Of a stretch of DNA of 64,000 nucleotides, positions 20,596 to 38,379 are shown one piece after another; the first letter of the stretch is position 1, and every line of letters begins with the position of its first letter. The DNA comes from Actinocorallia herbida (GTDB taxonomy: Bacteria; Actinomycetota; Actinomycetes; Streptosporangiales; Streptosporangiaceae). The DNA is taken from positions 7,316,001-7,380,000 of the forward strand of contig NZ_RJKE01000001.1 of assembly GCF_003751225.1 (NCBI RefSeq), given 5' to 3'. A program made the translations under genes and the position numbers. The notes below the pieces were generated by a model. It saw only the letters and a program-made list of their open reading frames with translations, was not told the origin of the DNA and searched no databases.

Positions 20596-20607
20596 TTTGG
20601 ATCCAAT
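20596..20607. promoter_or_regulatory. TTGGATCCAA-type operator (Rieske/GntR region)
   Basis: TTTGGATCCAAT, with the core TTGGATCCAA a perfect 10-bp palindrome at 20597-20606. It stands about 70 bp upstream of the Rieske start. The same core recurs before other operons of this cluster. Confidence 0.7.
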
Positions 20608-21060
20608 ATCGGGAGGATGTGGCTGATACGAGTCATCCGATCACCGAATTCGTACCGCAAGCATGGACGGCGGTACAATCTTGGGCCCCCGGGCCGATTC
20701 CAGACCAAGACCGCCGCTTCCCCGGGTGCCACCTGCGGGAACATCGGCGTGCCGGACGCGCCGCCCCGAACCCGTCACGTCCGAAACCCGAGGACGCACC
20801 GGGCCGTATTCGGGGCGGCGGTCCCGCACACGGAGCCCGGAACGCACCGGGACGGGTCCCGGACATCCGGAACCGCCCTTCGCATCGCGCGTCCCGCACG
20901 CACCCGTCGCCGCCCGAGGAAGATCCTCACTTTCGAATCCCAAACAAGTCTTTCAGGATCCCAAATCCCCGGCTTTCGGCCCCAGGTGGTCCGAATCCCC
21001 CCGGCAGGGCGCGGAGACGCGTCCAGGACGGCTTGGTATCATCGTCCCAGAAGCGATTTC

Positions 21061-21070
21061 TTGGATCCAT
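21061..21070. promoter_or_regulatory. TTGGATCCAT operator upstream of the GntR regulator gene
   Basis: One base away from the perfect TTGGATCCAA palindrome, 65 bp upstream of the regulator's GTG. A related TTGGTATCAT lies 28 bp further upstream. Suggests autoregulation. Confidence 0.6.
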
Positions 21071-21134
21071 GCGACTCGCTCCGAGGCCGGTACCGCGGCG
21101 CGGGGGCGGGCCGCCCTCCGAAAGGTCCCCAACC

Positions 21135-21848
21135 GTGGACTCCGACGCGACCTCCCTGGGCCGCAGCGCCCTGGTGGACGAGACCGCCGCCGCGATCCGC
21201 GCCCGCATCATGTCGGGCGAGATCCCCATCGGCGCGCAGCTCCGCCAGGCCGAACTCGCGGCACAGCTCGGCATCAGCCGCACCCCCATCCGCGAGGCGC
21301 TCCGCCAGCTCCAGGCCGGCGGGCTCATCGAGGTGCTGCCCCGGCGCGGCGCGGTCGTGCGCGTCCCGTCCCCCTGGGAGGTGCGCGAGGCCTACGAGGT
21401 GCGCGCCGAACTCGAGGGCCTGGCCGCCGAGCGGGCCGTCCGCCGCGTCACCCGCACCCTGCTCGACGAGCTGCGCGCCACCAACGAGGTGCTGCGCGCC
21501 AACGACCGCCCGGCCGAGCCGCCGCGCCCCGGCGAGCCGATGTCGCCGACCACGGTCGCCAACGACCGCTTCCACACCCTGATCCACGAGATCGCGGGCA
21601 ACGACCGCCTCACCCGCACCATCCGCGAGATCAACGAGGCCTTCCCCCGCAACGTCTCCGCCAACGTCCTCCAGGACGACCACCGCCACCAGGCCGACAA
21701 CCTCCACGAACACGAGCGCATCGTCGCCGCCCTCGAATCCGAGGACCCCAAACTGGCCCGCCGCGAAATGCGCGACCACGTCCTCGCCGCCGGCGAGCAA
21801 CTGGCCCGCTGGTACGAACGCCGCACCGCCACGGTCTTCCGCGGCTGA
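21135..21848 (+). CDS. GntR-family transcriptional regulator, FadR/VanR (FCD) subfamily
   Basis: 237 residues from GTG 21135; longer upstream readings have no conserved sequence. The winged helix lies at about 10-75: AAAIRARIMSGEIPIGAQL, AELAAQLGISRTPIREALRQL and a wing LPRRGAVVRV. The rest is a helical FCD ligand-binding domain with NDRFHTLIHEIAGN (metal-binding His and Asp) and EHERIVAALES. FadR-type regulators are usually released from DNA by a pathway acid. The AT-rich palindromes around it and around the genes up to 38.4 kb are its probable operators; TTGGATCCAA closely resembles the operator type reported for VanR. Confidence 0.93.
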   Translation: MDSDATSLGRSALVDETAAAIRARIMSGEIPIGAQLRQAELAAQLGISRTPIREALRQLQAGGLIEVLPRRGAVVRVPSPWEVREAYEVRAELEGLAAERAVRRVTRTLLDELRATNEVLRANDRPAEPPRPGEPMSPTTVANDRFHTLIHEIAGNDRLTRTIREINEAFPRNVSANVLQDDHRHQADNLHEHERIVAALESEDPKLARREMRDHVLAAGEQLARWYERRTATVFRG

Positions 21849-21858
21849 CCCCTCCCCC

Positions 21859-21891
21859 GAAAGCGCCCGCCCTCCCCGGCCGGGCGCTTTC
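21859..21891 (+). terminator. Terminator of the GntR gene
   Basis: Perfect 11-bp arms GAAAGCGCCCG and CGGGCGCTTTC with an 11-nt loop, 10 bp after the stop codon. Confidence 0.75.
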
Positions 21892-21930
21892 ACGTTCCGC
21901 TCAACGGACGAGCCGAAGGCGCGGGCCGGC

Positions 21931-22086
21931 TCAGGAGCGCGTGGCCGAGGGGCGCAGCGCGCGTTCCGAGATCCGGGCGGCCGCCCAGGCCGGCCTCAGC
22001 CGGCCGAACACAAAGGTCTGGACGGCGTTCATCCGGCCGTCGACGACGGCCGGGACGCGTCCGCGCAGGGCGGCGAACACGCGCGG
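21931..22086 (-). pseudogene. Possible 3' remnant of a gene, next to the mobile element
   Basis: About 51 codons ending at 21931 read as RVFAALRGRVPAVV, MNAVQTFVFGRLRPAWAAARI and a basic tail. This has a normal amino acid composition and resembles the C-terminal tail of a short-chain dehydrogenase, whereas the reading upstream (into 22087-22300) looks like noise. If real it is a fragment left by a deletion beside the element. The family call is weak. Confidence 0.25.
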
Positions 22087-22121
22087 AGCAAGGCCCGGCC
22101 TCGAGGCCGGGCCTTGCTCCG
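22084..22121. repeat. Perfect 38-bp palindrome
   Basis: Nineteen bases on each side of the centre (22102/22103) pair without mismatch; the left arm begins CGGAGCAAGG and the centre is CCTCGAGG. It could form a long hairpin on either strand. It lies just left of the TnpB-like element, so it may be a terminator, an element-associated hairpin or a recombination target. Confidence 0.6.
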
Positions 22122-22151
22122 ATGCGGGGTATTGAACTGTTGCCCGCTGAG

Positions 22152-23993
22152 TGTTCAGGAGTGTTCGGAAGCGCCCACAAGGTCGTATCCGTGGTGTCCG
22201 TGGTGCTGGTGGTGCTGGTCGTCGTGTCTCCTGGTCGGGGTGTGGCCGCTGGTTCCGGCAGCATGGCGTGGACTGTGTGTTGTCCGATTCCCCGGACATG
22301 ACCCTGACATCGGGAGTAGGTTCTCATCCGATCACATTCGGTGACTTCGGCCAGGTGAAGGGGGTCGTCTGCTGTGGGTGGGTCGATGCCGCTGCGGTCG
22401 ATGGCCGCGCCGTTTCTGGTTGCGGAGGCCTGCGGGGTGTCGGTGCGGACCCGCCTGAAAGACCTCACCGCGGCCGACGAGGAGGTGTTGCGCCGGGTCG
22501 GCGCACATCTGGGATCGCTGGCGTCCCAGGACCTCAAGGCGCGCTGCGGTGACGGGCTTGGCCACAGCGCACAGCGGTGGGCGGAGCGCAAGCGGGAGTT
22601 GACCGGGGGATCGTCATCGAGGTGGGCGGGCGCGATCACCAAGGCCTCCCACGATCAGTGGGCGCTGGCCCGCCGCTCCCAGACCGCCCACATCACGACC
22701 CTCGACACCGCCATCACCACGATCAGCCACCGTCTCGCCCTGCCGGTCGGGCAGAAAGGCGCTCGGGGTGTGCCGGGCGGGTACCGGTCGGCTATGGAGT
22801 GGTTCGGGAAGTCCCGTCGCCTGAGGGTGCTGAAGCAGCGCCGGCAGCAGGTCGCAGCGGACCGGGCCGGGGGCAGGGTGCGCGTCGTGCGGGGCGGAAA
22901 GAGCCTTGCTCGTGGCCGGCATCAACTGGAGGCCGCCAGGATGAGTGAGAAGCAGTGGCGGGAGCGGTGGGAGGCGGCCCGCTGGTTCCTGTCCGCCGAC
23001 GGTGAGACCGGCAAGCGGTACGGCAACGAGACCCTGCGCGTCACTCCCGATGGGCAGGTGTCGATCAAACTGCCCACCCCCCTGGCCGGTCTCGCCAACG
23101 CCCCCCACGGCCGGTACACGCTGGCCGCCCGCGCCTGCTTCGCCCATCGGGGCCGGGAGTGGGCGGACCGGGTCGAGGCGGACCGGGCGGTGGCCTACCG
23201 CATCCACCTGGACCCCGCACGGGGCCGCTGGTACGTGGACGCATCCTGGCAGCGGACGCCCGTGCAGACGATCCCGCTGGAGGCCGCTCTGGCTGCTGGT
23301 GTGGTCGGGGTCGACACCAATGCCGACCACCTCGCCGCCTGGCACCTCGACACGCACGGCAACCCGATCGGCAGGCCCCGCCGGTTCTTCTACGACCTGT
23401 CGGGCAGCGCCTCTCATCGGGACGCGCAGCTCCGCCACGCCCTCACCCGGCTCCTGCACTGGGCGCGCCGTCTCGGTGTCGCGGCGATCGCCATCGAGGA
23501 TCTCGACTTCGGTGACGTCAAGTCCCGCGAGAGGCACGGCGGGCGGCGTCTGCGCCGGGTCGTTCACGGGATCCCGACGGGCCGGCTGAAGGCCCGGCTG
23601 GTGTCGATGGCCGCTGAGCAGGGGATCGCGTTGGTGGCGGTGGATGCGGCTTACACCAGCCGGTGGGGAGCGCGGTATTGGCAGCAGGCCACCAGCACAC
23701 GCAAGACCAAGACCAGCCGTCATGAGGCCGCGAGCCTCGTGATCGGACGGCGCGCCCAGGGCCATGGCGCCCGGCGTCGGACGGCACCGCCCCCGCATCA
23801 CCGGAGTGATGATGCGGGGCATCGGACCGCCCAGGCCCGGCACCACGACCCCGGACGTGAGGAACCCCGCCCGGCCCGGACCGGAGGGCGGACACGATCC
23901 GCCGCTCCACCGGGCGCGTGAAAGCGAGGGGGCCAGTCTGTCCAGCACCGTTCGGGACAGACGCACTGATCCCAGGGGGAACACTCCTGGACA
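22152..23993 (+). mobile_element. TnpB-only mobile element (IS605/IS1341-like) with short inverted ends
   Basis: A 15-bp sequence TGTTCAGGAGTGTTC at 22152-22166 recurs inverted with one change at 23979-23993, flanking a single TnpB-like gene. No TnpA gene is present, so the element cannot move by itself. It splits the regulator/Rieske part of the catabolic cluster from the flavoenzyme operon; the right end is only 22 bp from the flavoenzyme stop. Boundaries are inferred from the repeats; no target duplication was identified. The 3' end may also carry a guide-RNA scaffold, as in other TnpB elements. Confidence 0.55.
22374..23921 (+). CDS. TnpB-like protein (IS605 OrfB family), zinc ribbon apparently lost
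   Basis: 515 residues from GTG 22374 with AAGGGGG upstream. The RuvC-like core is visible: VVGVDTNADHLAAW (first Asp), AIAIEDLDFGDV (catalytic Glu), and the late AYTSRWGARYW segment. In ordinary TnpB the last is followed by a CxxC zinc ribbon and a DxxNAA motif; here neither is seen, and TSRHEAASLVIGRRAQG stands in its place. This form is known among actinobacterial TnpB-related proteins. TnpB proteins are RNA-guided DNA nucleases that favour element retention; whether this variant still cuts is uncertain. The Arg/Pro-rich end (about 470-515) looks like readthrough. Confidence 0.8.
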   Translation: MGGSMPLRSMAAPFLVAEACGVSVRTRLKDLTAADEEVLRRVGAHLGSLASQDLKARCGDGLGHSAQRWAERKRELTGGSSSRWAGAITKASHDQWALARRSQTAHITTLDTAITTISHRLALPVGQKGARGVPGGYRSAMEWFGKSRRLRVLKQRRQQVAADRAGGRVRVVRGGKSLARGRHQLEAARMSEKQWRERWEAARWFLSADGETGKRYGNETLRVTPDGQVSIKLPTPLAGLANAPHGRYTLAARACFAHRGREWADRVEADRAVAYRIHLDPARGRWYVDASWQRTPVQTIPLEAALAAGVVGVDTNADHLAAWHLDTHGNPIGRPRRFFYDLSGSASHRDAQLRHALTRLLHWARRLGVAAIAIEDLDFGDVKSRERHGGRRLRRVVHGIPTGRLKARLVSMAAEQGIALVAVDAAYTSRWGARYWQQATSTRKTKTSRHEAASLVIGRRAQGHGARRRTAPPPHHRSDDAGHRTAQARHHDPGREEPRPARTGGRTRSAAPPGA

Positions 23994-24014
23994 GTGCTCA
24001 GGAACGGTGTGGCG

Positions 24015-25148
24015 CTACACCGGCCGCAGCATGTGGGAGGGCTGGAGGAAGGCGAGGTCGGGGCGGGGGGCGCCTTGGACGAGGTCGGCCAGGGCTTCGC
24101 CGATGGCGGGACCGAATTTGAAGGCGTGGCCGGAGCAGGCGGCGGCGACGAGGACGTGGGGGCGGGTGGGGAGGGGGCCGATGGCGAAGCGGTTGCGGGG
24201 GGCCATGGTGTAGCGGCAGGCGAGGTCTTCGGTGATGGGGCCGTCGGCGGCGGGGAGGAAGCGGCGGACCAAGGCGTGGAGGGTCTCGCGTTCCTCGGCC
24301 GTGACGGGGGCGGGCGAGGCCGCCGGGTCGTCGTCGGGGCCCAGGTCCAGGCCGACCTTGACGGCCTTGCCGTCGAAGGCGGGGATGCCGTACATGAGGC
24401 CGATGCCGGGGACGTCGACGGAGAAGCTGCCCAGCGACGGGGGTGCGAGCAGGGGCTCGTTCGCCGAGGCGACGTGGATGTTGACGATGCGGATCACGCG
24501 GAGGACGTCGGTGAACTCGGGGAGGAGGCCGGCGGTCCAGGGGCCCGCGCAGATCACGAGGTGGGCGGCCTTCGCGGAGCCCTTGGGGGTCCGCACGGTG
24601 ACGCCGGTCGCGTCGGAGGCGAACGACAGGACCGGGGTTCCGTCGTGGCGCTCGACGCCGTGGGCGCGGGCCAGGTCGGCGAGGGCCGTCAGCGAGCCGG
24701 CCGCGTCGATGACGCCCGCGTTCGGGTCGAACACGGCACCGAATTCCGGGCCCAGCGAAAGGCCGGGGAAGATCTCGGCCGCGCGCTTGAAGTCGACGGG
24801 TTCGCAGTCGGGCCCCCGCAGCCCCGCGGCCTCCTCCCCCACCGGGCGGGCGTAGAGCCCGCCCGTCCGGGTGACGAGTTCGCGGCCGGACTCGGCTTCG
24901 AGGAGGTCCCACGCCGCGTAGGCCCGGTCGACGAGCCCGTCCCACACGTCGGACGGGTAGGCCCGCCGGATCATCCGGGTCGGCCCGTGCGACGAGCCCC
25001 GCGCGTGCCCGGCCTCGAACTGCTCGAGGTGCAGCACCCGGGCCCCGCGCGCGGCGAGCCGCCATGCCGCGGACGACCCGTGCACCCCGGCCCCGACAAC
25101 GATCGCGTCGTACCCGTCGGAGGCGAACCCCTCAACTCGCTCGGACAT
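24015..25148 (-). CDS. FAD-dependent amine oxidase, monomeric sarcosine oxidase / N-methyltryptophan oxidase type
   Basis: 377 residues from ATG 25148, with GAAGG 5-6 nt upstream. The Rossmann fingerprint DAIVVGAGVHGSSAAWRLA is followed by GSSHGPTRMIRRAY, the signature of the MSOX/MTOX group. Near the C-terminus, the cysteine in LACRYTMAP aligns with the residue that covalently holds FAD in this family, and AACSGHAFKFGPAIGE is the flavin-contact loop. The enzyme would oxidise an N-methyl or secondary amine, giving the amine, an aldehyde (often formaldehyde) and H2O2. Last gene of a likely operon with the aminotransferase and aldehyde dehydrogenase, 143 bp after the former. Confidence 0.9.
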   Translation of the reverse strand: MSERVEGFASDGYDAIVVGAGVHGSSAAWRLAARGARVLHLEQFEAGHARGSSHGPTRMIRRAYPSDVWDGLVDRAYAAWDLLEAESGRELVTRTGGLYARPVGEEAAGLRGPDCEPVDFKRAAEIFPGLSLGPEFGAVFDPNAGVIDAAGSLTALADLARAHGVERHDGTPVLSFASDATGVTVRTPKGSAKAAHLVICAGPWTAGLLPEFTDVLRVIRIVNIHVASANEPLLAPPSLGSFSVDVPGIGLMYGIPAFDGKAVKVGLDLGPDDDPAASPAPVTAEERETLHALVRRFLPAADGPITEDLACRYTMAPRNRFAIGPLPTRPHVLVAAACSGHAFKFGPAIGEALADLVQGAPRPDLAFLQPSHMLRPV

Positions 25149-25291
25149 GTCCACCTTCTTCTCGACGTTCTGCTTCGGCACTGCCCGGCCCGAGCGCCAC
25201 CGCGCCCGACCCGTCACGGGGGCCGCCCGAGGCGACCCGTTCGAGCTTTCGGTCCCGGCCGCTCCGGCCCCGCTCCCGCCTGCCCCGAGGG

Positions 25292-26491
25292 TCACGGGTG
25301 GAGCGCGGCGGTCAGGGCGGTGATGTCGTCGGGGGTGTTGTACAGGTGGACGGAGGCGCGGACCACGGCGGGGAGGCCGCGGCGGGAGAGGTCCCAGCGG
25401 CCGTGGGAGGCGGGGACCGAGGTGACGTGGAGGCCGTGGCCGCGCAGGGCGCGGACGGTGTCGGCGGGGGGTTCGCCTTCGCGGACGAAGGTGACGATGC
25501 CGCCGCCCGCGGCGGGCGGATCCACGACGCGGACGCCGGGCACCTCCGCCAGACCCGTGCGGGCCAGCGAGCCCAGGGAGGCTATGTGGGCGTACACGCG
25601 GTCGGGCCCCGCGGCCTGGAGTTCCGCAAGGGCGGCGACGAGTCCTAGGCGGAGCGCGTGAGCGTGTTCCCAGGTCTCGAAGCGCCGGGCGCCGGGGGCG
25701 AGGACATAGGAGTCGTCCTCCATCCAGACCGCGCCGCGCACGTCCGGCGCGAGGGGGCGGAGACCCAGGGAAGGGTCGACCCAGAGCAGGCCGGTGCCGC
25801 GCGGGGCGCGCAGGAACTTGCGGCCGGTGCCGACCAGCAGCGTGCAGCCGAGCGCCGCGACGTCCAGCGGGAGCTGCCCGACGGACTGGGTGGCGTCCAG
25901 CAGGAACGGGACGCCCGCCTCGCGTGCGATCGCGCCGATCTCGGCGACGGGCTCGACCAGCCCGGACGAGGTGGGCACGTGCGCGGCGGTGACGAGCGCG
26001 GCCGGGGCGCGCAGCGCGGCGCGCAGCCCGGCGAGGTCGACCGCGCCGGTCTCGTCGGTGCCGACCACGTCGATCACCACGCCGTGCCGCCGCCGCAGCT
26101 CGAAAAGGTTCAGCGCCGAGCTGACATAGGTGGACGCGGTCGCGACGACCCGGTCGCCGGGCCCGAGCCGCAGCGCGTCCACGGCCCGCTGCCACGACAC
26201 CGTCGCGCTCTCGGTGAGGGCGACGTCCTCGGTCCGGCCGCCGAGCAGCGCCGCGACGAGCGCGTAAGCCGACTCGGTGTTCGGCCGGGCGGCCTCGGCC
26301 GCCTCGTAGCCGCCGATCTTGGCCTCCAGCCGCAGATGCCCGATGACGGCGTCGAGCACCGCCGTGCTCGGCAGCGACGCGCCCGCCGCGTTCAGGTGCC
26401 GCGCGTGCGCGGCCCCTGGGGTCGAGGACCGCGCGGCGGCGGACAGCGCGTCGTCGATGCCGCCCGCGACGGCGCCGGGAGACGCGGTCAC
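25292..26491 (-). CDS. PLP-dependent class V aminotransferase
   Basis: 399 residues from GTG 26491, overlapping the aldehyde dehydrogenase stop by GTGA. Fold-type I signatures: HLNAAGASLP at the N-terminus, the PLP-ring aspartate in PFLLDATQSVGQ, and the Schiff-base lysine in VGTGRKFLRAPRGTGLLWV. It resembles isopenicillin N epimerase/cysteine desulfurase-like proteins, a group that also contains lyases and kynureninase-like enzymes. Within this operon it could remove or exchange the amino group of the pathway intermediate that the dehydrogenase later oxidises. Substrate unknown. Confidence 0.88.
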   Translation of the reverse strand: MTASPGAVAGGIDDALSAAARSSTPGAAHARHLNAAGASLPSTAVLDAVIGHLRLEAKIGGYEAAEAARPNTESAYALVAALLGGRTEDVALTESATVSWQRAVDALRLGPGDRVVATASTYVSSALNLFELRRRHGVVIDVVGTDETGAVDLAGLRAALRAPAALVTAAHVPTSSGLVEPVAEIGAIAREAGVPFLLDATQSVGQLPLDVAALGCTLLVGTGRKFLRAPRGTGLLWVDPSLGLRPLAPDVRGAVWMEDDSYVLAPGARRFETWEHAHALRLGLVAALAELQAAGPDRVYAHIASLGSLARTGLAEVPGVRVVDPPAAGGGIVTFVREGEPPADTVRALRGHGLHVTSVPASHGRWDLSRRGLPAVVRASVHLYNTPDDITALTAALHP

Positions 26492-27954
26492 AGGGCCACC
26501 ACGACGCTCTTGGGCTCACAGAACGCGTGCAGCGCCTCGTCGCCGAGGTCGCGGCCGAGCCCGGAGTCGCGGACGCCGCCGAACGGCAGGGCCGGGTCGA
26601 ACACGTTGTAGGTGTTCACCCAGACGGTCCCGACGTGCAGGGCGGCGGCCATCCGGTGGGCGCGGGAGAGGTCCCGGGTCCAGACACCGGCGGCGAGACC
26701 GAAGTCCGAGTCGTTGGCGATCGCGACGGCGTCGGCCTCGTCCTTGAACGGGATCACGCCGACGACGGGCCCGAAGATCTCCTCCCGGGCGATCCGCATG
26801 TCGTTCCGCATCCCGGTGAAGAGCGTCGGCTCCACGAAGTAGCCGGGCCGGTCGGGCACGCCGCCGCCCGCCGCGAGCACGGCGCCTTCGGCCCGCCCGA
26901 TCTCGATGTAGGACAGCACCCGCTGCCGCTGCTCCTCCGACACCAGCGGTCCGACGGTCACGCCGCCGTCCAGCCCACCGCCGAGAGGCACCTTCGCGAC
27001 CGCGGCGATGAGCCGCTCCTGGGTCTCCGTCAGGATCGACTCCTGGACGAGCAGGCGGCTCCCCGCCGTGCACATCTGCCCGGAATGCCCGAAAGACGCG
27101 CGCATCGCGGTGAGCACCGCCGCGTGGAGGTCGGCGTCCTCGAACACGATGTTGGCGCTCTTGCCGCCGAGCTCCAGGGTGAGCCGGGCGACGCGCGGGG
27201 CCGCGGCGGCCATGACCGCCTTGCCCACCTCGGTGGACCCGGTGAAGGACACCTTGGCGACGCCCGGATGCGCGACGAGCGCCGCGCCGGTCGCGCCGTC
27301 GCCGGTGAGCACGTTGAGCACCCCGTCCGGCAGGCCCGCCTCGGCGGCGAGCGCGGCGACGCGCAGGATCGTCAGCGGGGTCTGCTCGGCGGGCTTGACG
27401 ACCACGGTGCAGCCCGCGGCGAGCGCCGGGGCGATCTTGAAGCAACCGGTCATGATCGGGAAGTTCCACGGCAGCACCAGGGCGGCCACGCCGACGGGCT
27501 CGCGCACCGTGTAGGCGTGATGAGGCCCCTCGATCGGGATGACCGAGCCGGTGAGGCGGCCGGGGGCGCCGGCGAAGTGGCGGAAGGTCCTGGCGCTGCT
27601 CGCCACGTCGGCGCGGGATCGCTCGATGGGCTTGCCGTTGTCGCGCGTCTCCAGGACGGCGAGTTCCTCGGCGTGCGCCTCGATGAGGTCGGCGATCCGG
27701 GAAAGGACGCGGGTGCGCTCCAGCGGCGGCAGGCCGCGCCAGCGCGCGTCGGCGTGGGCGCGGGCCGCGGCGGCCACGGCGGCGTCGACGTCGGCGGCGG
27801 TCGCCTGGGCGACCCGGGTCAGCACGGCGCCGGACGCGGGGTCGACGACGTCGATCATCGCGCGGTCGCCGGGGGCGATCCAGACGCCGTCGATGAGGAA
27901 CGGCTCCTCCTCGCGCAGCGCGCCCTGTCCGCCGGTTGCCGCGGTCGTACTCAT
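26488..27954 (-). CDS. NAD(P)-dependent aldehyde dehydrogenase (betaine/aminoaldehyde-like)
   Basis: 488 residues from ATG 27954 with GGAAGGGG upstream. Conserved ALDH parts in order: VLPWNFPIMTGCFKIAPAL, VKPAEQTPLT, VSFTGSTEVGK (cofactor loop), LELGGKSANIVF (catalytic Glu), the nucleophile Cys in GQMCTAGSR, and EEIFGPVVGV. It oxidises an aldehyde produced in the pathway to the acid. First gene of the operon that continues into the aminotransferase and flavoenzyme; the TTGGATCCAA operator is 50 bp upstream. Confidence 0.93.
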   Translation of the reverse strand: MSTTAATGGQGALREEEPFLIDGVWIAPGDRAMIDVVDPASGAVLTRVAQATAADVDAAVAAAARAHADARWRGLPPLERTRVLSRIADLIEAHAEELAVLETRDNGKPIERSRADVASSARTFRHFAGAPGRLTGSVIPIEGPHHAYTVREPVGVAALVLPWNFPIMTGCFKIAPALAAGCTVVVKPAEQTPLTILRVAALAAEAGLPDGVLNVLTGDGATGAALVAHPGVAKVSFTGSTEVGKAVMAAAAPRVARLTLELGGKSANIVFEDADLHAAVLTAMRASFGHSGQMCTAGSRLLVQESILTETQERLIAAVAKVPLGGGLDGGVTVGPLVSEEQRQRVLSYIEIGRAEGAVLAAGGGVPDRPGYFVEPTLFTGMRNDMRIAREEIFGPVVGVIPFKDEADAVAIANDSDFGLAAGVWTRDLSRAHRMAAALHVGTVWVNTYNVFDPALPFGGVRDSGLGRDLGDEALHAFCEPKSVVVAL

Positions 27955-28003
27955 GGCTCGTCCCCTTCCCTTCACGATCAAGCTGGATACTAACTTAGAA
28001 GTA

Positions 28004-28013
28004 TTGGATCCAA
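28004..28013. promoter_or_regulatory. TTGGATCCAA operator of the aldehyde dehydrogenase operon
   Basis: Perfect palindrome inside ATTGGATCCAAAAATCC, in an AT-rich stretch. A weaker copy CTGGATACTAA lies about 20 bp nearer the gene (27982-27992). Positioned 50 bp upstream of the ATG at 27954. Confidence 0.75.
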
Positions 28014-28021
28014 AAATCCAG

Positions 28022-30613: not shown

Positions 30614-30626
30614 CCCAACCTCCATG

Positions 30627-30638: not shown

Positions 30639-30657
30639 ATCACTTCTACGGTATCCT

Positions 30658-31119: not shown

Positions 31120-31137
31120 CGCGCCGGCCTGGAGACC

Positions 31138-31170
31138 GCGGCCCGGACCTCCGCGCGGAGTCCGGGCCGC
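31138..31170. terminator. Bidirectional hairpin between convergent deaminase and amidohydrolase genes
   Basis: Arms GCGGCCCGGAC and GTCCGGGCCGC pair perfectly over 11 bp around an 11-nt GC-rich centre. It lies between the two stop codons (31119 and 31178). Confidence 0.65.
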
Positions 31171-31177
31171 GCCGTCT

Positions 31178-31948
31178 CTACGCCGGGACGGAGATGCCGA
31201 GGATGCGGGCGATGTTGCCGCCCTCGACCAGGGCTCGGTCGGCGTCGTCGGTGATGGCCTTGCCGATCTTCATGCGTTCCAGGTCGAAGTCGTGGCCGGG
31301 CCACTCGGTGCCCATGACGATCTTCTCCGGGCCCAGGCGGGCGTAGGCGCGGCGGACATCCGATAGCAGGGTCGCGGATGTCTCCAGGTAGACGTTGGGG
31401 TTGCGCTCGGCGACGAGGATGGCGTCGGGGACGTTCCAGACGGCGCCCATGTGGGCGATGATCGTGGGGACCTCGGGGAAGCCCTTGGCGATCTCCTCGA
31501 TCATGAACGGGGAGCAGAACGGGTCGTCCAGCGCGTTCACCAGGACGGCGATCCCGGCCTCGCGGCAGATCCGGTAGACCGGGTCGAGCAGGCCGTGGTC
31601 GGAGAAGAAGTAGCCGTGCAGGGTCGGGTGCAGTTTCAGGCCGAGCATCCCGGCCTCGGCGATCCGCTCGACCTCCGCGAGCGCGTCGTCGTCCTGCGGC
31701 ATCACCTGGCCGAAGCCGAACAGCCGGTCGGGGTGGCGCTGGACGAGGTCGATGAGGAAGTCGTTCTCGATCCGCTGGGCCAGAGAGCAGACCATCGCCA
31801 TGTCGACGCCCGCCGCGTCCATCCGGTCGAGGATGCGGCGCGGGTCGAACGGCGTGTGCGGCGGCGGGTCCTCGCCGGGACGCACCCCGGTGAGGTAGTC
31901 CGAGCGGCCCCGTTCGTTCTGGGCGGTGTTGTAGGCGTCGATGATCAT
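31178..31948 (-). CDS. Amidohydrolase_2 family protein lacking the first metal motif
   Basis: 256 residues. TIM-barrel pieces typical of the ACMSD-like amidohydrolase_2 group: MLGLKLHPTLHGYFF, TIIAHMGAVWN and GTEWPGHDF with the late aspartate. The N-terminal HxH expected after strand 1 is replaced by MIIDAYNTAQ, so the usual metal pair is incomplete. Relatives decarboxylate or hydrolyse ring-derived acids. It is the last gene of a long operon running from the binding protein at 36590. The activity may therefore be altered or lost. Confidence 0.8.
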   Translation of the reverse strand: MIIDAYNTAQNERGRSDYLTGVRPGEDPPPHTPFDPRRILDRMDAAGVDMAMVCSLAQRIENDFLIDLVQRHPDRLFGFGQVMPQDDDALAEVERIAEAGMLGLKLHPTLHGYFFSDHGLLDPVYRICREAGIAVLVNALDDPFCSPFMIEEIAKGFPEVPTIIAHMGAVWNVPDAILVAERNPNVYLETSATLLSDVRRAYARLGPEKIVMGTEWPGHDFDLERMKIGKAITDDADRALVEGGNIARILGISVPA

Positions 31949-31967
31949 GCTGTTTCCCCGTGCTTCG

Positions 31968-32780
31968 CTAGCGGGTGGGAGGTTCGGTGTGGGTGAGTTC
32001 GGCGGTGAGCGCGGGCCAGGCCACCGGGTCGTGACCCGGCACCAGCCGCAGGCCGCGGGCCGCGGCGTGGGCCTTGAGGCGGCGGACCGGCGCGACGGTC
32101 TCGACGGGCGCGACCCCGACGCCGAAGCCGATCGGCAGCTCTTCCTCGATGACCGCGGTGAGGTCGGCCGCGTCGAAGGCGAAGACGAATCCGCCGCCCC
32201 CGGCGGTCTCGACCGCGAAGCTCTGGTGGCCGGGCGTGTGCCCGGCGGTGTCGAGGGCCGTGACGCCGGGGAGGAGCTCGGCGTCGCCGTCCAGGAGCCG
32301 CCAGTCGTGCCGCGGGTCGTCGAAGTCGATCCGGTAGACGACGTTCTTCTCGACCGACGGGTCGCCCGACAGGCCGTACTCCAGCTCGCGCCGCTGGATG
32401 TGGACCGGGACGCGCCCGGCGAAGTGCTTCAGCCCTCCCGCGTGGTCGCAGTGCAGATGGCTGATCGCGACCTCGGTGACGTCCTCCGGCGCGAACCCGT
32501 GCGCGGCGAGCGCGTCCAGCAGGGGCTCGCCCTCGCCCGGCGGCAGGTGCGGCTTGTAGAAGGGCGCGGCGTAGAAGCGCGCGCGCAGGGCGGGGTCGCG
32601 CAGCAGCGCGGTGTTGAAGCCGGTGTCGAGCAGCAGGAGCCCCCCGGTGTGCTCGACCAGGACCGCCGGCACAGGCTCGCGCAGCACCTCGTCGCCGCCC
32701 TCGTGCACCGAGCACCAGCGGGGCAGTTCCTCCCAGCCCAGCGTCAGCGGGATGACCCGCGTGACGGAGGTCCCCGCCAT
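31968..32780 (-). CDS. Metallo-beta-lactamase-fold lactonase (N-acylhomoserine lactonase-like)
   Basis: 270 residues. The zinc motif ISHLHCDHAGGL and downstream TAGHTPGHQSF, FAFDAADLT and VPGHDP complete the AiiA-type HxHxDH...H...D...H site. Related enzymes open lactone rings. Within this operon it more likely hydrolyses a lactone intermediate than a quorum signal. It is encoded between the ABC ATPase (2 bp apart) and the amidohydrolase. Confidence 0.88.
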   Translation of the reverse strand: MAGTSVTRVIPLTLGWEELPRWCSVHEGGDEVLREPVPAVLVEHTGGLLLLDTGFNTALLRDPALRARFYAAPFYKPHLPPGEGEPLLDALAAHGFAPEDVTEVAISHLHCDHAGGLKHFAGRVPVHIQRRELEYGLSGDPSVEKNVVYRIDFDDPRHDWRLLDGDAELLPGVTALDTAGHTPGHQSFAVETAGGGGFVFAFDAADLTAVIEEELPIGFGVGVAPVETVAPVRRLKAHAAARGLRLVPGHDPVAWPALTAELTHTEPPTR

Positions 32781-32781
32781 C

Positions 32782-33804
32782 TCAGTCCCCGATCACATGA
32801 CGCGGGGCGGCGTGGCTGAGCCCGATCCTGACCTTGCCGCCCTCGGTCAGCCCCGAGGCGTCCACCGACGGAGGCAGGCTCACGATGAGGGTGCCCGCCT
32901 CGGGGTGGTCGACCTCCAGCCGGAACCGCGATCCCTGGAAGACCTTGAGCCGCAGGACGCCGTCGATGCCGTCGCCGCCGTCGCCGTCGCCGACAAGGCA
33001 GAGGTCCTCGGGCCGGAGCACCGCGGTGCCCGAGGCGGCGTAGGGCGCGCCGAACCCGGCGAGCCGCCCGCCCTCGACCGGCACGAGGTTGGCCTCGCCG
33101 AGGAAGGTCGCGACGAACCGGGTCGCGGGCCGGTGGTACAGGTCCTCGGGCGTGCCGTACTGCTCGATGAGGCCGTCCTTCATGATGGCGACCTTGTCGG
33201 ACATCGTCAGCGCCTCGGTCTGGTCGTGGGTGACCGCGATCGTGGTGAGCCCGAGCCTGGCGTGCAGCCGCTTGATCTCCATCTGCATCGTCTCGCGCAG
33301 CTGGCGGTCGAGCGCGGCCATCGGCTCGTCCAGCAGGAGCAACCGCGGCGAGGCGGCGAGCGCGCGGGCGATCGCGACGCGCTGGCGCTGCCCGCCGGAC
33401 AGCGAGGCGACCTTGCGGTCGGCCATCTCGCCGAGCTGGACCAGCTCCAGCATCCGCAGCGCCGTCTCCGTCCGCTCCTTCCTGGGGCGGCGGCGGGTCA
33501 GCAGCGGGAACGCCACGTTCTCCCCGACGCTCAGGTGCGGGAACAGCGCGTAGGACTGGAACACCACGCCCACGTCGCGGCTGTGCGGCGGCACGTCGTT
33601 GACGCGCTCGGTGTCGAACATGACGTCGCCGCCCGAGGTGTCGGTGAGGCCGCCGATCACGTTGAGCGTGGTGGACTTGCCGCTGCCGCTCGGACCGAGC
33701 AGGGTCACGAACTCGCCCTGGGCGATGTCGAGGGAGACCCCGCGCAGGATGTGGTTGCCTCCGAGCGTGACGTGCACGTCGTCGAGGCGGACCGAGACCG
33801 TCAA
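32782..33804 (-). CDS. potA: ABC transporter ATPase, spermidine/putrescine type
   Basis: 340 residues from TTG 33804; the start overlaps the preceding permease stop (TTGA) and has GAGGAAG upstream. All nucleotide-binding motifs are present: Walker A GPSGSGKST, the Q-loop FQSYALFPH, LSGGQRQRVAIARAL, and Walker B LLLLDEP, followed by a TOBE domain (about 250-340). It powers the importer formed by the two permeases and the Tat-exported binding protein. Gene name reflects subfamily resemblance, not proven substrate. Confidence 0.92.
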   Translation of the reverse strand: MTVSVRLDDVHVTLGGNHILRGVSLDIAQGEFVTLLGPSGSGKSTTLNVIGGLTDTSGGDVMFDTERVNDVPPHSRDVGVVFQSYALFPHLSVGENVAFPLLTRRRPRKERTETALRMLELVQLGEMADRKVASLSGGQRQRVAIARALAASPRLLLLDEPMAALDRQLRETMQMEIKRLHARLGLTTIAVTHDQTEALTMSDKVAIMKDGLIEQYGTPEDLYHRPATRFVATFLGEANLVPVEGGRLAGFGAPYAASGTAVLRPEDLCLVGDGDGGDGIDGVLRLKVFQGSRFRLEVDHPEAGTLIVSLPPSVDASGLTEGGKVRIGLSHAAPRHVIGD

Positions 33805-34613
33805 GACTTCCTCGTTTCTCCGCGTCGCCGCGAGATCAGGTTCGCCCCGCCGAGCAGGAGCAGGGACAGGAGGGTGACCAGCGTCGACGCGGCGGTCAGC
33901 TCCGGCGAGATCGCCTCACTCGAGGCGTTCATCATCTGGAGCGGCAGCGTGGTGGCGGTGCCCGGCGGGATCAGGAAGATCGACAGCACGACCTCGTCGA
34001 ACGCGAGGTTGAAGCCGAACAGGGCGCCCGCGGCGATCGCGCCGCGCAGCAGCGGCAGCTCCACCTTCCACACGATGGTCGGCCAGCGCGCGCCGAGGGT
34101 GGCGGCGGCCGGGCGCAGCGCCGGGTCGAGGCCGGAGATGGCGCCGCTCACCAGGATGAAGACCATGGGGAACGCCAGGCAGACCAGGCCGAGGATGAGC
34201 GGCACGAGTGAGTCGTCGAGCACCGGGACCCGGTTGACGGTGTCGTACAGGCCGAGCGCGTAGGCGATGACCGGCATGGCCATCGGCAGGACGAACAGCG
34301 ACCGGAAGATCCGGCCCGCGCCCGTCAGCCGGGTCAGGCCGAGCGCGGCCGCGACGGCGAGGACCGTCGCGACGGCCGTGGCGAGGCCCGCGACCCCGAT
34401 GGACGTCCAGAAGGCGCCCATCCACTCGGTGTCGCCGAACAGGCCGGTGTACCAGCGCAGCGAGAAGCCCTGCGGGGGGAAGGTGAGGAACTCCCCGTCG
34501 GTCCAGGACGTGGCGAGCAGCACCGCGAAGGGCGCGATGAGGAAAAGGCCGAGCAGCGCGGCGAACGCCACCACGGGGACCCGGTACGCGCCGAGTGCCA
34601 TGCGCGAGCCCAT
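33801..34613 (-). CDS. potC: ABC transporter permease, PotC-like
   Basis: 270 residues from ATG 34613 (5 bp after the previous stop). Six membrane helices and the permease loop LRPAAATLGARWPTIVWKVELPLLR. It forms the channel with the 34618-35484 permease. Substrate unknown but probably a cationic or amine compound, by analogy with the family and the amine-handling enzymes around it. Confidence 0.9.
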   Translation of the reverse strand: MGSRMALGAYRVPVVAFAALLGLFLIAPFAVLLATSWTDGEFLTFPPQGFSLRWYTGLFGDTEWMGAFWTSIGVAGLATAVATVLAVAAALGLTRLTGAGRIFRSLFVLPMAMPVIAYALGLYDTVNRVPVLDDSLVPLILGLVCLAFPMVFILVSGAISGLDPALRPAAATLGARWPTIVWKVELPLLRGAIAAGALFGFNLAFDEVVLSIFLIPPGTATTLPLQMMNASSEAISPELTAASTLVTLLSLLLLGGANLISRRRGETRKS

Positions 34614-34617
34614 CGGT

Positions 34618-35484
34618 CTACCCCCACTTCTCACTGACGCGGAACAGCCGGTCGGCCGCGGTGTAGAGCACCAGGACCGCGCCGAGGAGCAGCACCGACA
34701 TGGCGGCGGCCCGCTCGGGGTTGTCCGACCCGTTGAACTGCTGGTCGATGTAGCCGGCGACGGTCAGCTCGCTCGGCGAGCCGAGCATGAGCGGCGTGAC
34801 GTAGAAGCCGAGCGACATCAGGAAGATGAGCACCGCGGCGGAGATCATCGCCGGGCGCAGCTGCGGCAGGACCACCTTGCGCAGCACCAGCAGCGGGCGC
34901 GCGCCGAAGACCTGCGCGGCCTGGATCTGCGCGTGGTCGAGGCGGCCGATCGCGATCCAGACGGGCAGGACCGCGTACGGCAGCATCACGTGGACCATCG
35001 CCGGGTAGGCGGCGAGCGACGTCTGGTAGATCTCCAGTGGCTGATCGCGCAGGCCCAGTTCGTTGAGCGCCCAGAACAGCGCGCCCGCGGGCAGCTCCAG
35101 CAGCATCCAGCCGAACGTGCGGACCAGGACCGAGGTCCACATGGTGAGGAAGAGCCCGGCGAGCAGCAGTCCGGCGACCCAGCGCGGGGCGGCGGAGATG
35201 CCGAGGGCGTAGAGCGTGCCGAAGCCGACCGCGCACACGGTGACGACGACCGTCATCACGATCGTGTGCTGGACCGCGTCGTAGAAGACCTGGTCGCCGA
35301 CGAGGGAGGCGAAGGCGTTCTCCTCGCCGCTGAACGCGGTCTGCGCCAGCATCGCGACGGGCCCGATTAGCAGCAGCGCCAGCACCGCGATCGGGGGCAG
35401 CAGCAGCCAGCGCAGGCCGCTGCCGTCCGCCACCCGCAGACGCGGGCGGCGGACGGAAGGCAGGGTCACTTCTTGGACAGCCAC
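34618..35484 (-). CDS. potB: ABC transporter permease, PotB-like
   Basis: 288 residues from GTG 35484; GTG 35469, overlapping the binding-protein stop as GTGA, is an alternative. Six membrane helices beginning LLLPPIAVLALLLIGPVAML and the loop IQAAQVFGARPLLVLRKVVLPQLRP. Partner of the PotC-like permease in the same operon. Confidence 0.9.
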   Translation of the reverse strand: MAVQEVTLPSVRRPRLRVADGSGLRWLLLPPIAVLALLLIGPVAMLAQTAFSGEENAFASLVGDQVFYDAVQHTIVMTVVVTVCAVGFGTLYALGISAAPRWVAGLLLAGLFLTMWTSVLVRTFGWMLLELPAGALFWALNELGLRDQPLEIYQTSLAAYPAMVHVMLPYAVLPVWIAIGRLDHAQIQAAQVFGARPLLVLRKVVLPQLRPAMISAAVLIFLMSLGFYVTPLMLGSPSELTVAGYIDQQFNGSDNPERAAAMSVLLLGAVLVLYTAADRLFRVSEKWG

Positions 35485-36590
35485 TGCGTGTACTTCTCCA
35501 CGTACTCGTCGTAGACCTCGCCGAGGTAGTGGTTGTCGGCCTTGAGGCTCTTGGCGTCGTTCTCGGGGCTGTTGACGATCTGCTTGGCCAGCTCGGGTTC
35601 GATGAAGTCGAACGCCGCCTGGTTACCGGGTCCATAGCCGGTGAGCTTGGCGAACTCGGCCTGGCGCTTGCCGTCCGACATCCAGTGGGCGAGCGCGAAG
35701 GCCGCGTCCTTGTCCGGGGAGCCGGAGGCGGTGATGGAGATGTTGGCGCTCTGGAACGCCTCGTTCATCACGATGTGGGTCTTCTCGCCCTTGTTGTTCA
35801 GGGCGAAGAACAGGCCGGACGGCGCCTTGGCGACCGACACCGTGCCGGAGACCATGAACTGCTGGACCTGCGGGAACTCGGTGTAGAAGACCATGTGCTC
35901 GCGGAGCTCGTCGAGCTTGGCGAAGCCGCGTTCCCAGTCCAGCGGGTAGAGCTCGTCCATCGGGACTCCGTCGGCGAGCAGGGCCGACTCGATGGTGCCC
36001 TCGAAGGAGTAGCCGGTGCCGGGCCAGCCGCGCTTGCCGGGGAACTTCTCGACGTCCCAGAAGTCCTTCCAGTTCTGCGGGCCGGTGCCGCCGGGGAACG
36101 CCTTGTCCAGGTAGGCCTGGGTGTTGGCGACGATGAAGGTGCCCCAGGCGTAGTCCTGGGCGTCCTTGTCGAGGGAGTCGTTGCGGGTGACGTCGGCGGG
36201 CAGCTTCTCGATGTGGCCGAGCTTCAGGGAGCGGTACAGCTCGTAGACGCCAGCGGGCAGCGCGTCGTAGTCGCCCTTCTCGCCGTCCTGCATCTTGGCC
36301 TGGACCGCGTCGACGGTCATCGTCGGCACGACCTTGACGCCGGTCTCCTTGGTGAAGGAGTCGAAGAACGCCTTCACCCGGGCCTCACGGGTGGTCCCGC
36401 CGAAGTCGGCGTACACGACCTGCTTGCTCTTGATCCCGGAGAGCGGGCCGGAGGTGGGGGCGCTCACGGCGGCCTCCTCGCCGGAGCCGCAGGCGGTCAG
36501 AAGACCGGGGGCCGCCACGGCGCCTGCGCCGATCGTGGCCGCGCGCAGGAAGTTCCTGCGCGTCAGGGAGAGGGTGGAACGTTCGAACAT
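35466..36590 (-). CDS. Tat-exported substrate-binding lipoprotein of the Pot-type importer
   Basis: 374 residues from ATG 36590 with AAGGAG upstream. The signal peptide carries a twin-arginine motif (LTRRNFLRAA) and a lipobox LLTACGSG, so it is likely folded before export and anchored at the membrane surface. The mature domain resembles spermidine/putrescine-type binding proteins (VVYADFGGTTREARVKAFF; VEKFPGKRGWPG). It delivers the ligand to the two permeases. First gene of the operon extending to 31178; two operator copies stand at 36632-36663. Confidence 0.9.
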   Translation of the reverse strand: MFERSTLSLTRRNFLRAATIGAGAVAAPGLLTACGSGEEAAVSAPTSGPLSGIKSKQVVYADFGGTTREARVKAFFDSFTKETGVKVVPTMTVDAVQAKMQDGEKGDYDALPAGVYELYRSLKLGHIEKLPADVTRNDSLDKDAQDYAWGTFIVANTQAYLDKAFPGGTGPQNWKDFWDVEKFPGKRGWPGTGYSFEGTIESALLADGVPMDELYPLDWERGFAKLDELREHMVFYTEFPQVQQFMVSGTVSVAKAPSGLFFALNNKGEKTHIVMNEAFQSANISITASGSPDKDAAFALAHWMSDGKRQAEFAKLTGYGPGNQAAFDFIEPELAKQIVNSPENDAKSLKADNHYLGEVYDEYVEKYTQWLSKK

Positions 36591-36631
36591 GACGGACTTC
36601 TCCTTGGGCCACACTCTGAGCGATGACTACC

Positions 36632-36663
36632 TTGGATCCATAATCTAGAACTTTGAATCCAAT
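36632..36663. promoter_or_regulatory. Operator pair upstream of the Pot-type importer operon
   Basis: TTGGATCCAT (36632-36641) and TTTGAATCCAAT (36652-36663) are both one base from the palindromic consensus, with centres about 21 bp apart, two helical turns. They lie 42-73 bp upstream of the binding-protein start. Confidence 0.7.
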
Positions 36664-36680
36664 CATTGGTTTCGCGGATG

Positions 36681-37694
36681 TTAAACCGGTGGACGGTCCA
36701 GCAGCCTGGCCGGATTCGCCACGAGCATCGCGTCCACCTGTCCGTCCGAAACCCCCCGATCCCGCAGCACGGGCACGATCCGGCCGAGCAGATGGCCGTA
36801 TCCCATGCCGCCGAACGCGCTGAGCTGGCTCTTGGTCCAGACCGAGCAGCCGAGCACGATCCGGTCGGCGTGACCGTCGGCGAGGAAGGCGCCCAGGCCG
36901 TCGAGGCGCTCGGCGTCGGTGGCGTCCTTGTAGCCGTCGCGGTAGTAGGCCTCGTTGCCGAAGCACCACTCCAGCGTCGCGCCCGCGTCGGCGAGTTCCC
37001 GCAGGTAGGGGCCGTCGATGAACTCGTCGACGTTGCCGAAGACGACGCGGTCCGGCGGCAGTCCCTCGGCGGCCAGCAGGTCGAGCACGACGGGGCCGAG
37101 CCGGGCCGCGGGGTCCAGCCGGACCGTCGCGGCGGCCCCGGTGCGCGCCGCGGCGCGGCCCGCCGCCCGCAGCACCTTGACCTCGCCGCGCTGGAGCTCC
37201 TTGCTCGTGCCGAGGATGCCGAGCAGCGCGGCGCGGTATCCGCAGCCGGAGATCTCCTCGGTGAGCGCCGCGAAGAACAGGTCCTCCAGCGCGTCCTCGG
37301 ACGCCTCGGCCAGCCAGGAAGGGTGGGATCTGCCGAGGTAGGCGCCATAGCCGACCGCGATGTGCACGCCGGACCCGCGGGACAGCGCGGGCAGATCGGC
37401 GTAGCGGGGGCCGAGGCCCCAGCTCGTCAGATCCACCAGGCCGCGCTGGCCGAGCGCGGGCAGCGGCGCGAGCTCGGCGGCGGCGATCGCCGGGTCGTCG
37501 AGCCGCAGGTTGTCCTCGAGCGCGAGGAGGTTCCAGCGGACGAAACCGAGGTTCGCCATCGTCACGCGCGGATCGGCGGGCAGCGGCTCGCGGGCCGGGG
37601 CGTGCAGCACCGTGCTGTCGCTGAGCAGGTGCTCGTGCATCGAGGCGGCGCCGAACGCGGTCGCCTCGACCGGGCCGAGGACCGTCTCGATCAT
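36681..37694 (-). CDS. Phosphotriesterase-family paralogue with degraded metal site
   Basis: 337 residues; ATG 37694 overlaps the cyclase-gene stop by ATGA. It aligns throughout with the protein at 28022-29041, and SMHEHLLSD is kept, but the other metal ligands are gone: LGILGTSKEL has no Glu, ATVRLDPAA replaces the His segment, VFGNVDEFID has Asn in place of His, and VLGCSVWTK lacks the Asp. The frame is intact and codon use normal, so it is not a simple pseudogene. It may be a non-catalytic subunit, a binding protein or an enzyme with another mechanism. Confidence 0.85.
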   Translation of the reverse strand: MIETVLGPVEATAFGAASMHEHLLSDSTVLHAPAREPLPADPRVTMANLGFVRWNLLALEDNLRLDDPAIAAAELAPLPALGQRGLVDLTSWGLGPRYADLPALSRGSGVHIAVGYGAYLGRSHPSWLAEASEDALEDLFFAALTEEISGCGYRAALLGILGTSKELQRGEVKVLRAAGRAAARTGAAATVRLDPAARLGPVVLDLLAAEGLPPDRVVFGNVDEFIDGPYLRELADAGATLEWCFGNEAYYRDGYKDATDAERLDGLGAFLADGHADRIVLGCSVWTKSQLSAFGGMGYGHLLGRIVPVLRDRGVSDGQVDAMLVANPARLLDRPPV

Positions 37695-38335
37695 GCCGCG
37701 GGGGGCAGCAGCAGGGTCCGCGACGGGGCGCCCTCCGCGCCCTGGAACGGGATCGGCAGCGAGAGCATGCCGTAGGGGCCGGGCGCGACGTCCAGGAGGT
37801 CGACGACCTCCAGGATCAGCACGCCCGCGCCGCACAGGAGCCGGTGGGTCTCCCAGTGCTTCGTGTACGCGACCGCCTCGATCGAGAGGTAGTCGATCGC
37901 CGCGGTGCGCACGCCGGCCTCGATGAGCCGCTCGGCGCCGTCGGGGGCGAGGCCGACCCAGTGCGGGGACTTCCACGGCGAGCGCAGGACCGTCGCGGAG
38001 TTGGAGGTCTTGAGCAGGACACGGCCCTCGGCGCCCAGGCCCGCCTCGTCCAGGTCCCTGGCGGTGATCTGGTCCTCGACGTGGGTGAGGTCGAGGACAC
38101 GGGCGGCGCCGTTGAGATCGTTGAGGTCGATCTGGTCGACGGTCGCCCCGCCGTCGATGAAGTGCGCGGGGGCGTCGATGTGCGTGCCGGTGTGCGCGCC
38201 GATCCGCCAGCGGGAGACGTTGGAGGCGAAGCCGTCCGCCCTCGCCTCGACCACCTCGACCTCGGGGCGGCGTCCCCAGTGCAGCATGCCGGGGTGGATG
38301 GGCACGGACACGTCGATGGCACCGGAAAGATCCAC
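37691..38335 (-). CDS. Cyclase-family metal hydrolase (kynurenine-formamidase/isatin-hydrolase-like)
   Basis: 214 residues from GTG 38335 with AGGAGGG 5-6 nt upstream. The metal motif is HTGTHIDAPAHF, with later IDYLSIE and a conserved tail. The family opens amide or lactam rings, e.g. N-formylkynurenine or isatin, using Mn or Zn. It is coupled to the degenerate phosphotriesterase-like gene and is the first gene of that pair. Two operator copies lie within 45 bp upstream. Confidence 0.9.
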   Translation of the reverse strand: MDLSGAIDVSVPIHPGMLHWGRRPEVEVVEARADGFASNVSRWRIGAHTGTHIDAPAHFIDGGATVDQIDLNDLNGAARVLDLTHVEDQITARDLDEAGLGAEGRVLLKTSNSATVLRSPWKSPHWVGLAPDGAERLIEAGVRTAAIDYLSIEAVAYTKHWETHRLLCGAGVLILEVVDLLDVAPGPYGMLSLPIPFQGAEGAPSRTLLLPPAA

Positions 38336-38346
38336 GGCGACCCTCC

Positions 38347-38379
38347 TATGGATACAACAAGAGCATTTGTGGATCCACA
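38347..38379. promoter_or_regulatory. Operator pair upstream of the cyclase gene
   Basis: TGTGGATCCACA at 38368-38379 is a perfect 12-bp palindrome sharing the GGATCC core; ATGGATACAA at 38348-38357 is a weaker copy, about 21 bp away. Both precede the GTG at 38335. Confidence 0.65.

Follow-up and report, generated by a model that had tools for sequence, protein, structure and literature searches.

Which protein reads a short AT-rich palindrome that recurs in front of catabolic genes of Actinocorallia herbida, and how far does its control extend? The question is raised by a 64,000-nucleotide stretch of this genome (contig NZ_RJKE01000001.1, positions 7,316,001 to 7,380,000; hereafter the window, numbered from its first letter), in which copies of the palindrome TTGGATCCAA are found at a catabolic gene cluster that includes a gene for a GntR-type regulator (21135-21848, plus strand). 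We consider it very likely that this protein, a predicted VanR-group FCD repressor, controls a dispersed and probably amine-catabolic regulon via TTGGATCCAA.

Palindromes in the window and in the genome

The original prediction, made from the letters of this stretch, had placed the palindrome or a near copy in seven promoter regions. All seven are present in the sequence, with exact copies of TTGGATCCAA at 20597-20606, 28004-28013 and 30628-30637, copies with one mismatch at 21061-21070, 29065-29074, 36632-36641 and 36653-36662, and, in the last region, two copies with two mismatches each (38348-38357 and 38369-38378). The seven copies with at most one mismatch all fall inside 16 kb; 0.41 are expected in the window, and 100 shuffles of the window gave a maximum of two, a count of seven being reached in 0 of 100. 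A scan of the whole genome (9,800,715 bases), which had been suggested as a check, returned 23 places at this threshold, compared with 13 for a reversed control pattern. Seven of these 23 places and three of the four exact copies in the genome lie in the window, at the cluster. The fall of 7 of 23 places in one 16-kb stretch has a Poisson P of ~2e-14, on the assumption of an even spread and for a stretch chosen post hoc, and the remaining 16 places, outside the window, come near the reversed-control or background count.

Measured from the likelier gene starts, namely start codons that have a Shine-Dalgarno-like run, the sites are located 13-71 bp upstream, which refines the earlier statement that they are close to gene starts. 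Local GC content around the sites is 0.41-0.61, against 72% for the window. We found no sigma-70-like promoter in positions 20000-38800, where 0.6 are expected, and an overlap of operator and promoter is therefore judged from position only. The gene-side palindrome has a candidate likeness to TAGGAT, an actinobacterial -10 hexamer.

A pairing of the palindromes about two turns apart had likewise been proposed, and five of the seven regions carry a partner matching at least 7 of 10 positions at exactly 21 bp. On the minus strand, the double operator of an operon for a Rieske oxygenase and a glutamine-synthetase-like (GS) ligase (20576-20606) joins TTGGATCCAA at 20597-20606 to ATGGATCTCA at 20576-20585, 21 bp away. 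In the same orientation, that of the aldehyde dehydrogenase/class V aminotransferase operon (27983-28013) joins TTGGATCCAA to CTGGATACTA at 21 bp, that of the ABC transporter/metallo-beta-lactamase (MBL)/amidohydrolase operon (36632-36662) joins TTGGATCCAT to TTGAATCCAA at 21 bp, and that of the operon for a cyclase and a second phosphotriesterase-family protein (PTE2; 38348-38378) joins ATGGATACAA to GTGGATCCAC, also at 21 bp. Two operator regions lie between divergent genes (29065/29086 and 30628/30649, the plus-side start being uncertain for the second). The former (29065-29095) holds TTGGATCCTA and TAGTATCCAA between a minus-strand phosphotriesterase-family gene (PTE1) and a plus-strand isochorismatase-family gene. 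The latter (30628-30658) holds TTGGATCCAA and a weak CGGTATCCTA between a minus-strand creatininase-family gene and a plus-strand cytidine-deaminase-like gene; its partner at 21 bp matches 6 of 10 positions, and an equally good one is found at 20 bp on the opposite side. Upstream of the GntR gene, TTGGATCCAT at 21061-21070 (plus strand) is a putative autoregulatory site without a good partner at 21 bp, and a site is found at the same place before the GntR gene in three same-family relatives (L017-L019). The genome holds the pattern GGATCC-N17-ATCC at 45 distinct places, and this 18-kb stretch accounts for 6 of these (P ~4e-10); the control pattern one base shorter (N16) occurs at 17 places, 0 of them in the cluster.

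The best partner at 20-22 bp of the 16 near-matches outside the window matches at most 5 of 10 positions in 14 cases and 6 of 10 in two. A detached operator at genome position 7308863 (TTGGATCCCA, with the partner TCGTATCCCG at 21 bp, 6/10) precedes by ~34 bp a reading frame for a gamma-glutamyltranspeptidase (GGT), with a copper amine oxidase gene next. This operon (genome 7308863-7312369; L121:8864-12370) lies ~3.6-7.1 kb before the window, and 27.7 kb separate its operator from the one before the Rieske operon. Its GGT and copper amine oxidase genes are 55% and 58% identical to regulon-cluster genes of relatives, and the operon very probably belongs to the regulon.

Conservation of the palindromes and their spacing

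We compared the locus with related loci by using the Rieske protein as query and taking the best 80 of 590 loci. A near set comprises 26 actinobacterial loci with a Rieske identity of at least 72% (L022-L046, L069), and a distant set comprises 53 loci with an identity of at most 57%; one locus from Acidimicrobiales (L055, 56%) was excluded from both sets and has no TTGGATCCAA site. The near set contains 84 sites with at most one mismatch in 534 kb, whereas 30 control palindromes of the same composition gave a next-best count of 22 and a median of 1. Only 3 of the 84 sites lie inside homology-mapped genes, though these genes account for 53% of the sequence. In the distant set we found 5 matches in 947 kb, which equals the control median, and no GntR protein closer than 42% in 17 genomes of this set.

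An orthologue of the regulator is encoded within the fetched stretch in 19 of the 26 near loci; for another 4 it is found in other parts of the genome. The 23 near loci with sites, which span 13 genera, all come from genomes with the orthologue, and the 3 loci without sites come from genomes without it (Fisher P 3.8e-4, relatedness ignored). This co-conservation (23/23 vs 0/3) speaks for the earlier proposal that the GntR gene governs the whole cluster, although the predicted regulon extends beyond the cluster; that the cluster forms one inducible pathway, as was also proposed, is an inference. As related bacteria carry the palindrome together with the same regulator gene, one switch probably controls all groups of genes. 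The regulator is otherwise rare: with A. herbida included, it was found in 5 of 200 same-family genomes (E ≤ 1e-40) and in 5 of 394 genomes of the class (E ≤ 1e-30), where identity went down to 38%.

In A. herbida, as in most of the relatives tested, the motif clusters around these genes. In six relatives bearing the GntR gene, 14 of 18 exact copies of TTGGATCCAA lie in the fetched cluster stretch (Agromyces 6/7, Herbiconiux 3/3, Actinoplanes 2/2, Streptomyces 2/3, Nonomuraea 1/3), and one more, the seventh copy of Agromyces, lies 12 kb past the stretch on the same contig. No exact copy was found in three genomes without the GntR gene. Among same-family genomes with the regulator, two have 2/2 (G105) and 2/3 (G145) of their exact copies at the cluster, and in a third (G126) the one exact copy sits on a different contig, next to genes of the same kinds. 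A 43% identical GntR protein of G145 (L021) has no site in its 3.7-kb locus.

Spacing and orientation were counted in the near set plus four same-family loci (L102-L105). The 93 sites in these 30 loci comprise 34 exact and 59 single-mismatch copies; as sites were preselected at no more than one mismatch, it is the distribution of the mismatches, not their number, that is informative. Here, the outer four positions account for 53 of the 59 mismatches and the GGATCC core for 6, with zero at G3, T6 and C8. Partners matching at least 7 of 10 positions are found at exactly 21 bp in 60 cases, at 20 bp in 9 and at 22 bp in 5, and every remaining spacing between 12 and 60 bp has at most 4. Similarly, 55 of 76 operator regions (26 loci) have such a partner at 20-22 bp, compared with 1, 0 and 2 in three control ranges. 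Among 63 oriented operators (56 with one unambiguous downstream gene and 7 from the window), 36 have the partner on the gene side and 18 have it upstream. The flanks of the palindromes are weakly conserved. Two palindromes 21 bp apart would place two dimers on one helix face, and the double operator is compatible with binding of either two dimers or one tetramer.

The regulator and rival explanations

The regulator (237 aa) is a GntR superfamily protein of the FCD subfamily, with an N-terminal GntR winged helix-turn-helix domain (PF00392, E 2.4e-18) and a C-terminal FCD domain (PF07729, E 1.8e-23). Its 28 orthologues are 58-91% identical, and Gln38, R49, N143, H147, H193 and H215 are invariant in 29 of 29 sequences. 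In an AlphaFold model (pLDDT 84.7), the effector domain comprises helices 80-101, 107-122, 138-154, 157-167, 172-181/183-201 (kinked) and 205-234, making six if the kinked helix is counted as one and seven if it is split. Six rather than seven effector-domain helices are described for the VanR group of FCD regulators, and the metal site made of Asn/Asp and three His, which N143, H147, H193 and H215 would form here, also occurs in LldR of the FadR group (PMC7797058); the site is thus not exclusive to the VanR group. A further trait of that group is a short TNG..CNA palindrome read by the helix-3 arginine; here the motif and the arginine are each conserved, and the arginine would be predicted to read the motif. 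From alignment and model, we assign the protein to the VanR group, with a conserved predicted metal site and a putative DNA-reading arginine.

We compared the regulator with known systems. In a Foldseek search with the model, chains of Atu1419 come top by E-value, and the nearest solved sequences are those of PmiR (7xp0), the best phmmer match in PDB sequences (E 8.7e-19), and Atu1419 (6z74). PmiR of Pseudomonas aeruginosa (7xp0, 7xp1) shares 29-31% identity with the regulator in the Foldseek alignment, and its regulon differs from the one described here. VanR of Caulobacter crescentus is a GntR-type vanillate repressor of a Rieske-containing pathway, which controls vanAB and responds to vanillate; its target genes differ from the genes of this cluster. 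A vanillate-inducible Caulobacter insert carries ATTGGATCCAAT and ATTGGATCCAG, which we take to be the VanR operator. These copies, which have the same core as the palindrome here, lie 39 bp apart in the insert, compared with 21 bp here (PMC6538847). Atu1419 of Agrobacterium fabrum (6z74, 6za3) regulates hydroxycinnamate genes through ATGTATACAT, likewise a 10-bp palindrome with G3. Its Arg45, which reads guanine 3, corresponds to R49, and its zinc ligands N137/H141/H192/H214 correspond to N143/H147/H193/H215. It differs in having Glu34 where our protein has Gln38, and its sites are 109-190 bp apart and are looped by a tetramer, in contrast to the fixed 21-bp spacing (PMC7797058). VanR2 of Pseudomonas sp. 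NGC7 binds three GGATCC-centred inverted repeats, GGGATCCC, and represses; it belongs to a syringate pathway, its half-site flanks differ, and a 21-bp rule is not among the features described in the available part of that report (PMC12314914). GGATCC-centred operators are known for VanR-type regulators, and this type of regulator-motif pair is thus known. The proposed likeness of the motif to a VanR operator is borne out by ATTGGATCCAAT, ATTGGATCCAG and GGGATCCC.

We propose that the GntR protein would bind the TTGGATCCAA palindromes and silence its own gene, the Rieske-GS, aldehyde dehydrogenase-aminotransferase, ABC transporter-MBL-amidohydrolase and cyclase-PTE2 operons, the divergent pairs PTE1 and isochorismatase as well as creatininase and deaminase, and the detached GGT-copper amine oxidase operon. 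Two dimers, or one tetramer, near or over the promoter would block transcription close to the gene start. A small pathway metabolite, probably a carboxylate, would bind at the N/H/H/H metal site and release the protein from DNA. In this scheme the sites, their spacing, their concentration at the cluster and their co-conservation with the regulator are observed, and direct binding, repression as opposed to activation, cooperative loading, the inducer and the substrate are inferred.

Another regulator, for example an FCD GntR paralogue, might instead read the palindromes and the local GntR protein be a passenger. The genome indeed encodes eight further GntR homologues at E ≤ 1e-15, and GGATCC-centred operators serve other VanR-type proteins. 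We nevertheless regard such a passenger role as very unlikely: the nearest paralogue is 38% identical and carries E at position 38, where all 29 orthologues have Q, no TTGGATCCAA site with at most one mismatch is present in the eight paralogue loci (~1.5 kb on each side), and presence of the orthologue tracks the sites over 26 loci. An activating role, or a dual one with activation of some operons and repression of others, is somewhat less improbable for the regulator, yet still unlikely. The geometry varies, with the partner on the gene side in some operators and upstream in others (36 and 18 of 63); the distance of 13-71 bp from the likely starts suits repression, and both Atu1419 and VanR2 act as repressors from positions at the -10 or immediately downstream of it.

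That the palindromes reflect chance, a compositional effect or a mobile repeat appears extremely improbable, even if AT-rich promoter islands in a window of 72% GC raise the local rate of such matches. Palindromes of the same composition are not similarly enriched, the weakly conserved flanks argue against a long repeat, and both the predominance of mismatches outside the GGATCC core (53 vs 6) and the 21-bp phasing stand against this explanation. We rejected chance and composition on the basis of the 30 same-composition palindromes and the spacing controls.

Several observations weigh against control of the regulon by the local GntR protein. The only exact TTGGATCCAA outside the cluster (genome 9387843-9387852; L120:3844-3853), which has a weak partner at 20 bp and is the other near-match with a 6/10 partner, precedes a TauE/SafE permease gene without a known link to the pathway. 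The operator before the GntR gene itself is single, its best partner matching 5 of 10 positions. The relatives are phylogenetically non-independent, and two of the three genomes without the GntR gene are metagenome-assembled genomes of 2.7 and 2.9 Mb. Phytohabitans and one same-family genome (G053) have the regulator and zero exact copies, Phytohabitans carrying only one-mismatch sites, and no site is found within 1.5 kb of the GntR gene of Pseudonocardia CNS-139 (L112). Two same-genus genomes without the GntR gene contain 2 and 0 exact copies; the two copies (G016) lie elsewhere and, at the DNA level, are not similar to the TauE locus. For the reversed control pattern, Actinoplanes gave 2 exact matches and the other eight genomes none. 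Finally, the Foldseek superpositions on Atu1419 have a high root-mean-square deviation (6.5-7.4 Å), and the closest superposition is with 7u5q (2.2-2.3 Å), an entry whose title gives no function.

Taken with these points, control by the VanR-group protein is well supported, and the regulon is of a known kind and apparently undescribed. We found no description of the regulon, the pathway or the 21-bp double operator in the open-licence literature searched, where TTGGATCCAA together with GntR matched only cellulase work. We lean towards the view that this is an undescribed regulon of 13 actinobacterial genera, combining a VanR-type repressor, a phased double operator (a pair of 10-bp palindromes spaced exactly two helical turns) and a modular, unassigned amine pathway (gamma-glutamylation, Rieske oxygenation, copper amine oxidase, and variable hydrolases and transporters), in which the operator would serve as a tag that recruits operons, even distant ones. 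The regulator-operator pair is predicted and strongly conserved. Owing to its concentration at the regulon, the motif can serve to find missing pathway genes, as for the GGT-copper amine oxidase operon, and may help in working out the pathway, which probably acts on an amine. The fixed 21-bp spacing provides a clear rule for a possible two-dimer loading of a VanR-type protein. Synthetic circuits make use of vanillate-responsive VanR operators (PMC10229424), and the natural double operator could be useful as well.

Two further observations concern GntR proteins outside the near set. The nearest paralogue (L150, genome 9269295-9269903) has TTGCATGCAA and TTGCATACAA nearby, possibly an operator of its own that shares the form and has a different centre. 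A distant (35%) proteobacterial GntR protein (L137) has an exact TTGGATCCAA ~280 bp upstream (around 1222), and, judging from this site, the motif may predate the actinobacterial group. We considered whether Gln38 is linked to the GGATCC centre and dropped the idea, as only L137 among eight distant Gln proteins has an exact TTGGATCCAA at its locus; two other distant Gln38-type proteins carry TTGGATACAA in the locus.

Genes of the cluster and neighbouring features

Domain matches back the earlier description of the genes as a catabolic cluster. The Rieske oxygenase (19195-20526, minus strand, likely start 20526) has LigXa_C as its best C-terminal domain and a weak match to VanA_C (27.0 bits, cut-off 23.5). 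The GS-like ligase (17679-19295, minus) best matches gamma-glutamylputrescine synthetase in NCBIfam, below the cut-off. A class V aminotransferase-fold pyridoxal-phosphate enzyme (25292-26491, minus) and an aldehyde dehydrogenase (26488-27954, minus, likely start 27954) are encoded next, along with PTE1 (28022-29041, minus) and, on the plus strand, the isochorismatase-family hydrolase (29148-29747, likely start 29148). They are accompanied by the creatininase-family amidohydrolase (29804-30613, minus, likely start 30613) and the cytidine-deaminase-like protein (30664-31119, plus, start uncertain). The minus strand further encodes an amidohydrolase_2 family enzyme (31178-31948), a lactonase-like MBL-fold hydrolase (31968-32780), a polyamine-type ABC transporter with an ATPase, two permeases and a binding protein (32782-36590, likely start 36590), PTE2 (36681-37694) and a cyclase/arylformamidase-family hydrolase (37691-38335). 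Of the genes scanned in the window, none was recognised as coding for a reductase. GC-bias open reading frames on the plus strand (22374-23921, 23994-25661, 36666-37775) and minus-strand frames at 21890-25065 have no Pfam match.

Companions that recur in the 31 loci compared are copper amine oxidase (21), GGT (7), a Rieske-type reductase (8) and a GMC oxidoreductase (8), together with other hydrolases and transporters. From family knowledge, the gene set probably serves the use of an amine with gamma-glutamylation. GlnA3/GlnA4 of Streptomyces and the degraders of aniline and 1-naphthylamine also link a GS-like ligase to amine use, and the aromatic-amine routes, as here, combine a Rieske oxygenase and a GS-like enzyme. 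The cluster differs from such gamma-glutamylated amine pathways in the LigXa-type Rieske C-terminus, the copper amine oxidase, GGT and several hydrolases.

At 13296-16672 of the window, a beta-L-arabinopyranosidase-like gene (NCBIfam, below cut-off) adjoins a LacI-family regulator, a separate sugar locus. On the other side of the cluster, the palindrome TTAGGTAAGCCTTACCTAA (38511-38529), perfect except for its central base, is found close to where a cation/proton antiporter-family gene starts; it resembles what we take to be the box of an iron regulator of the DmdR/IdeR type.

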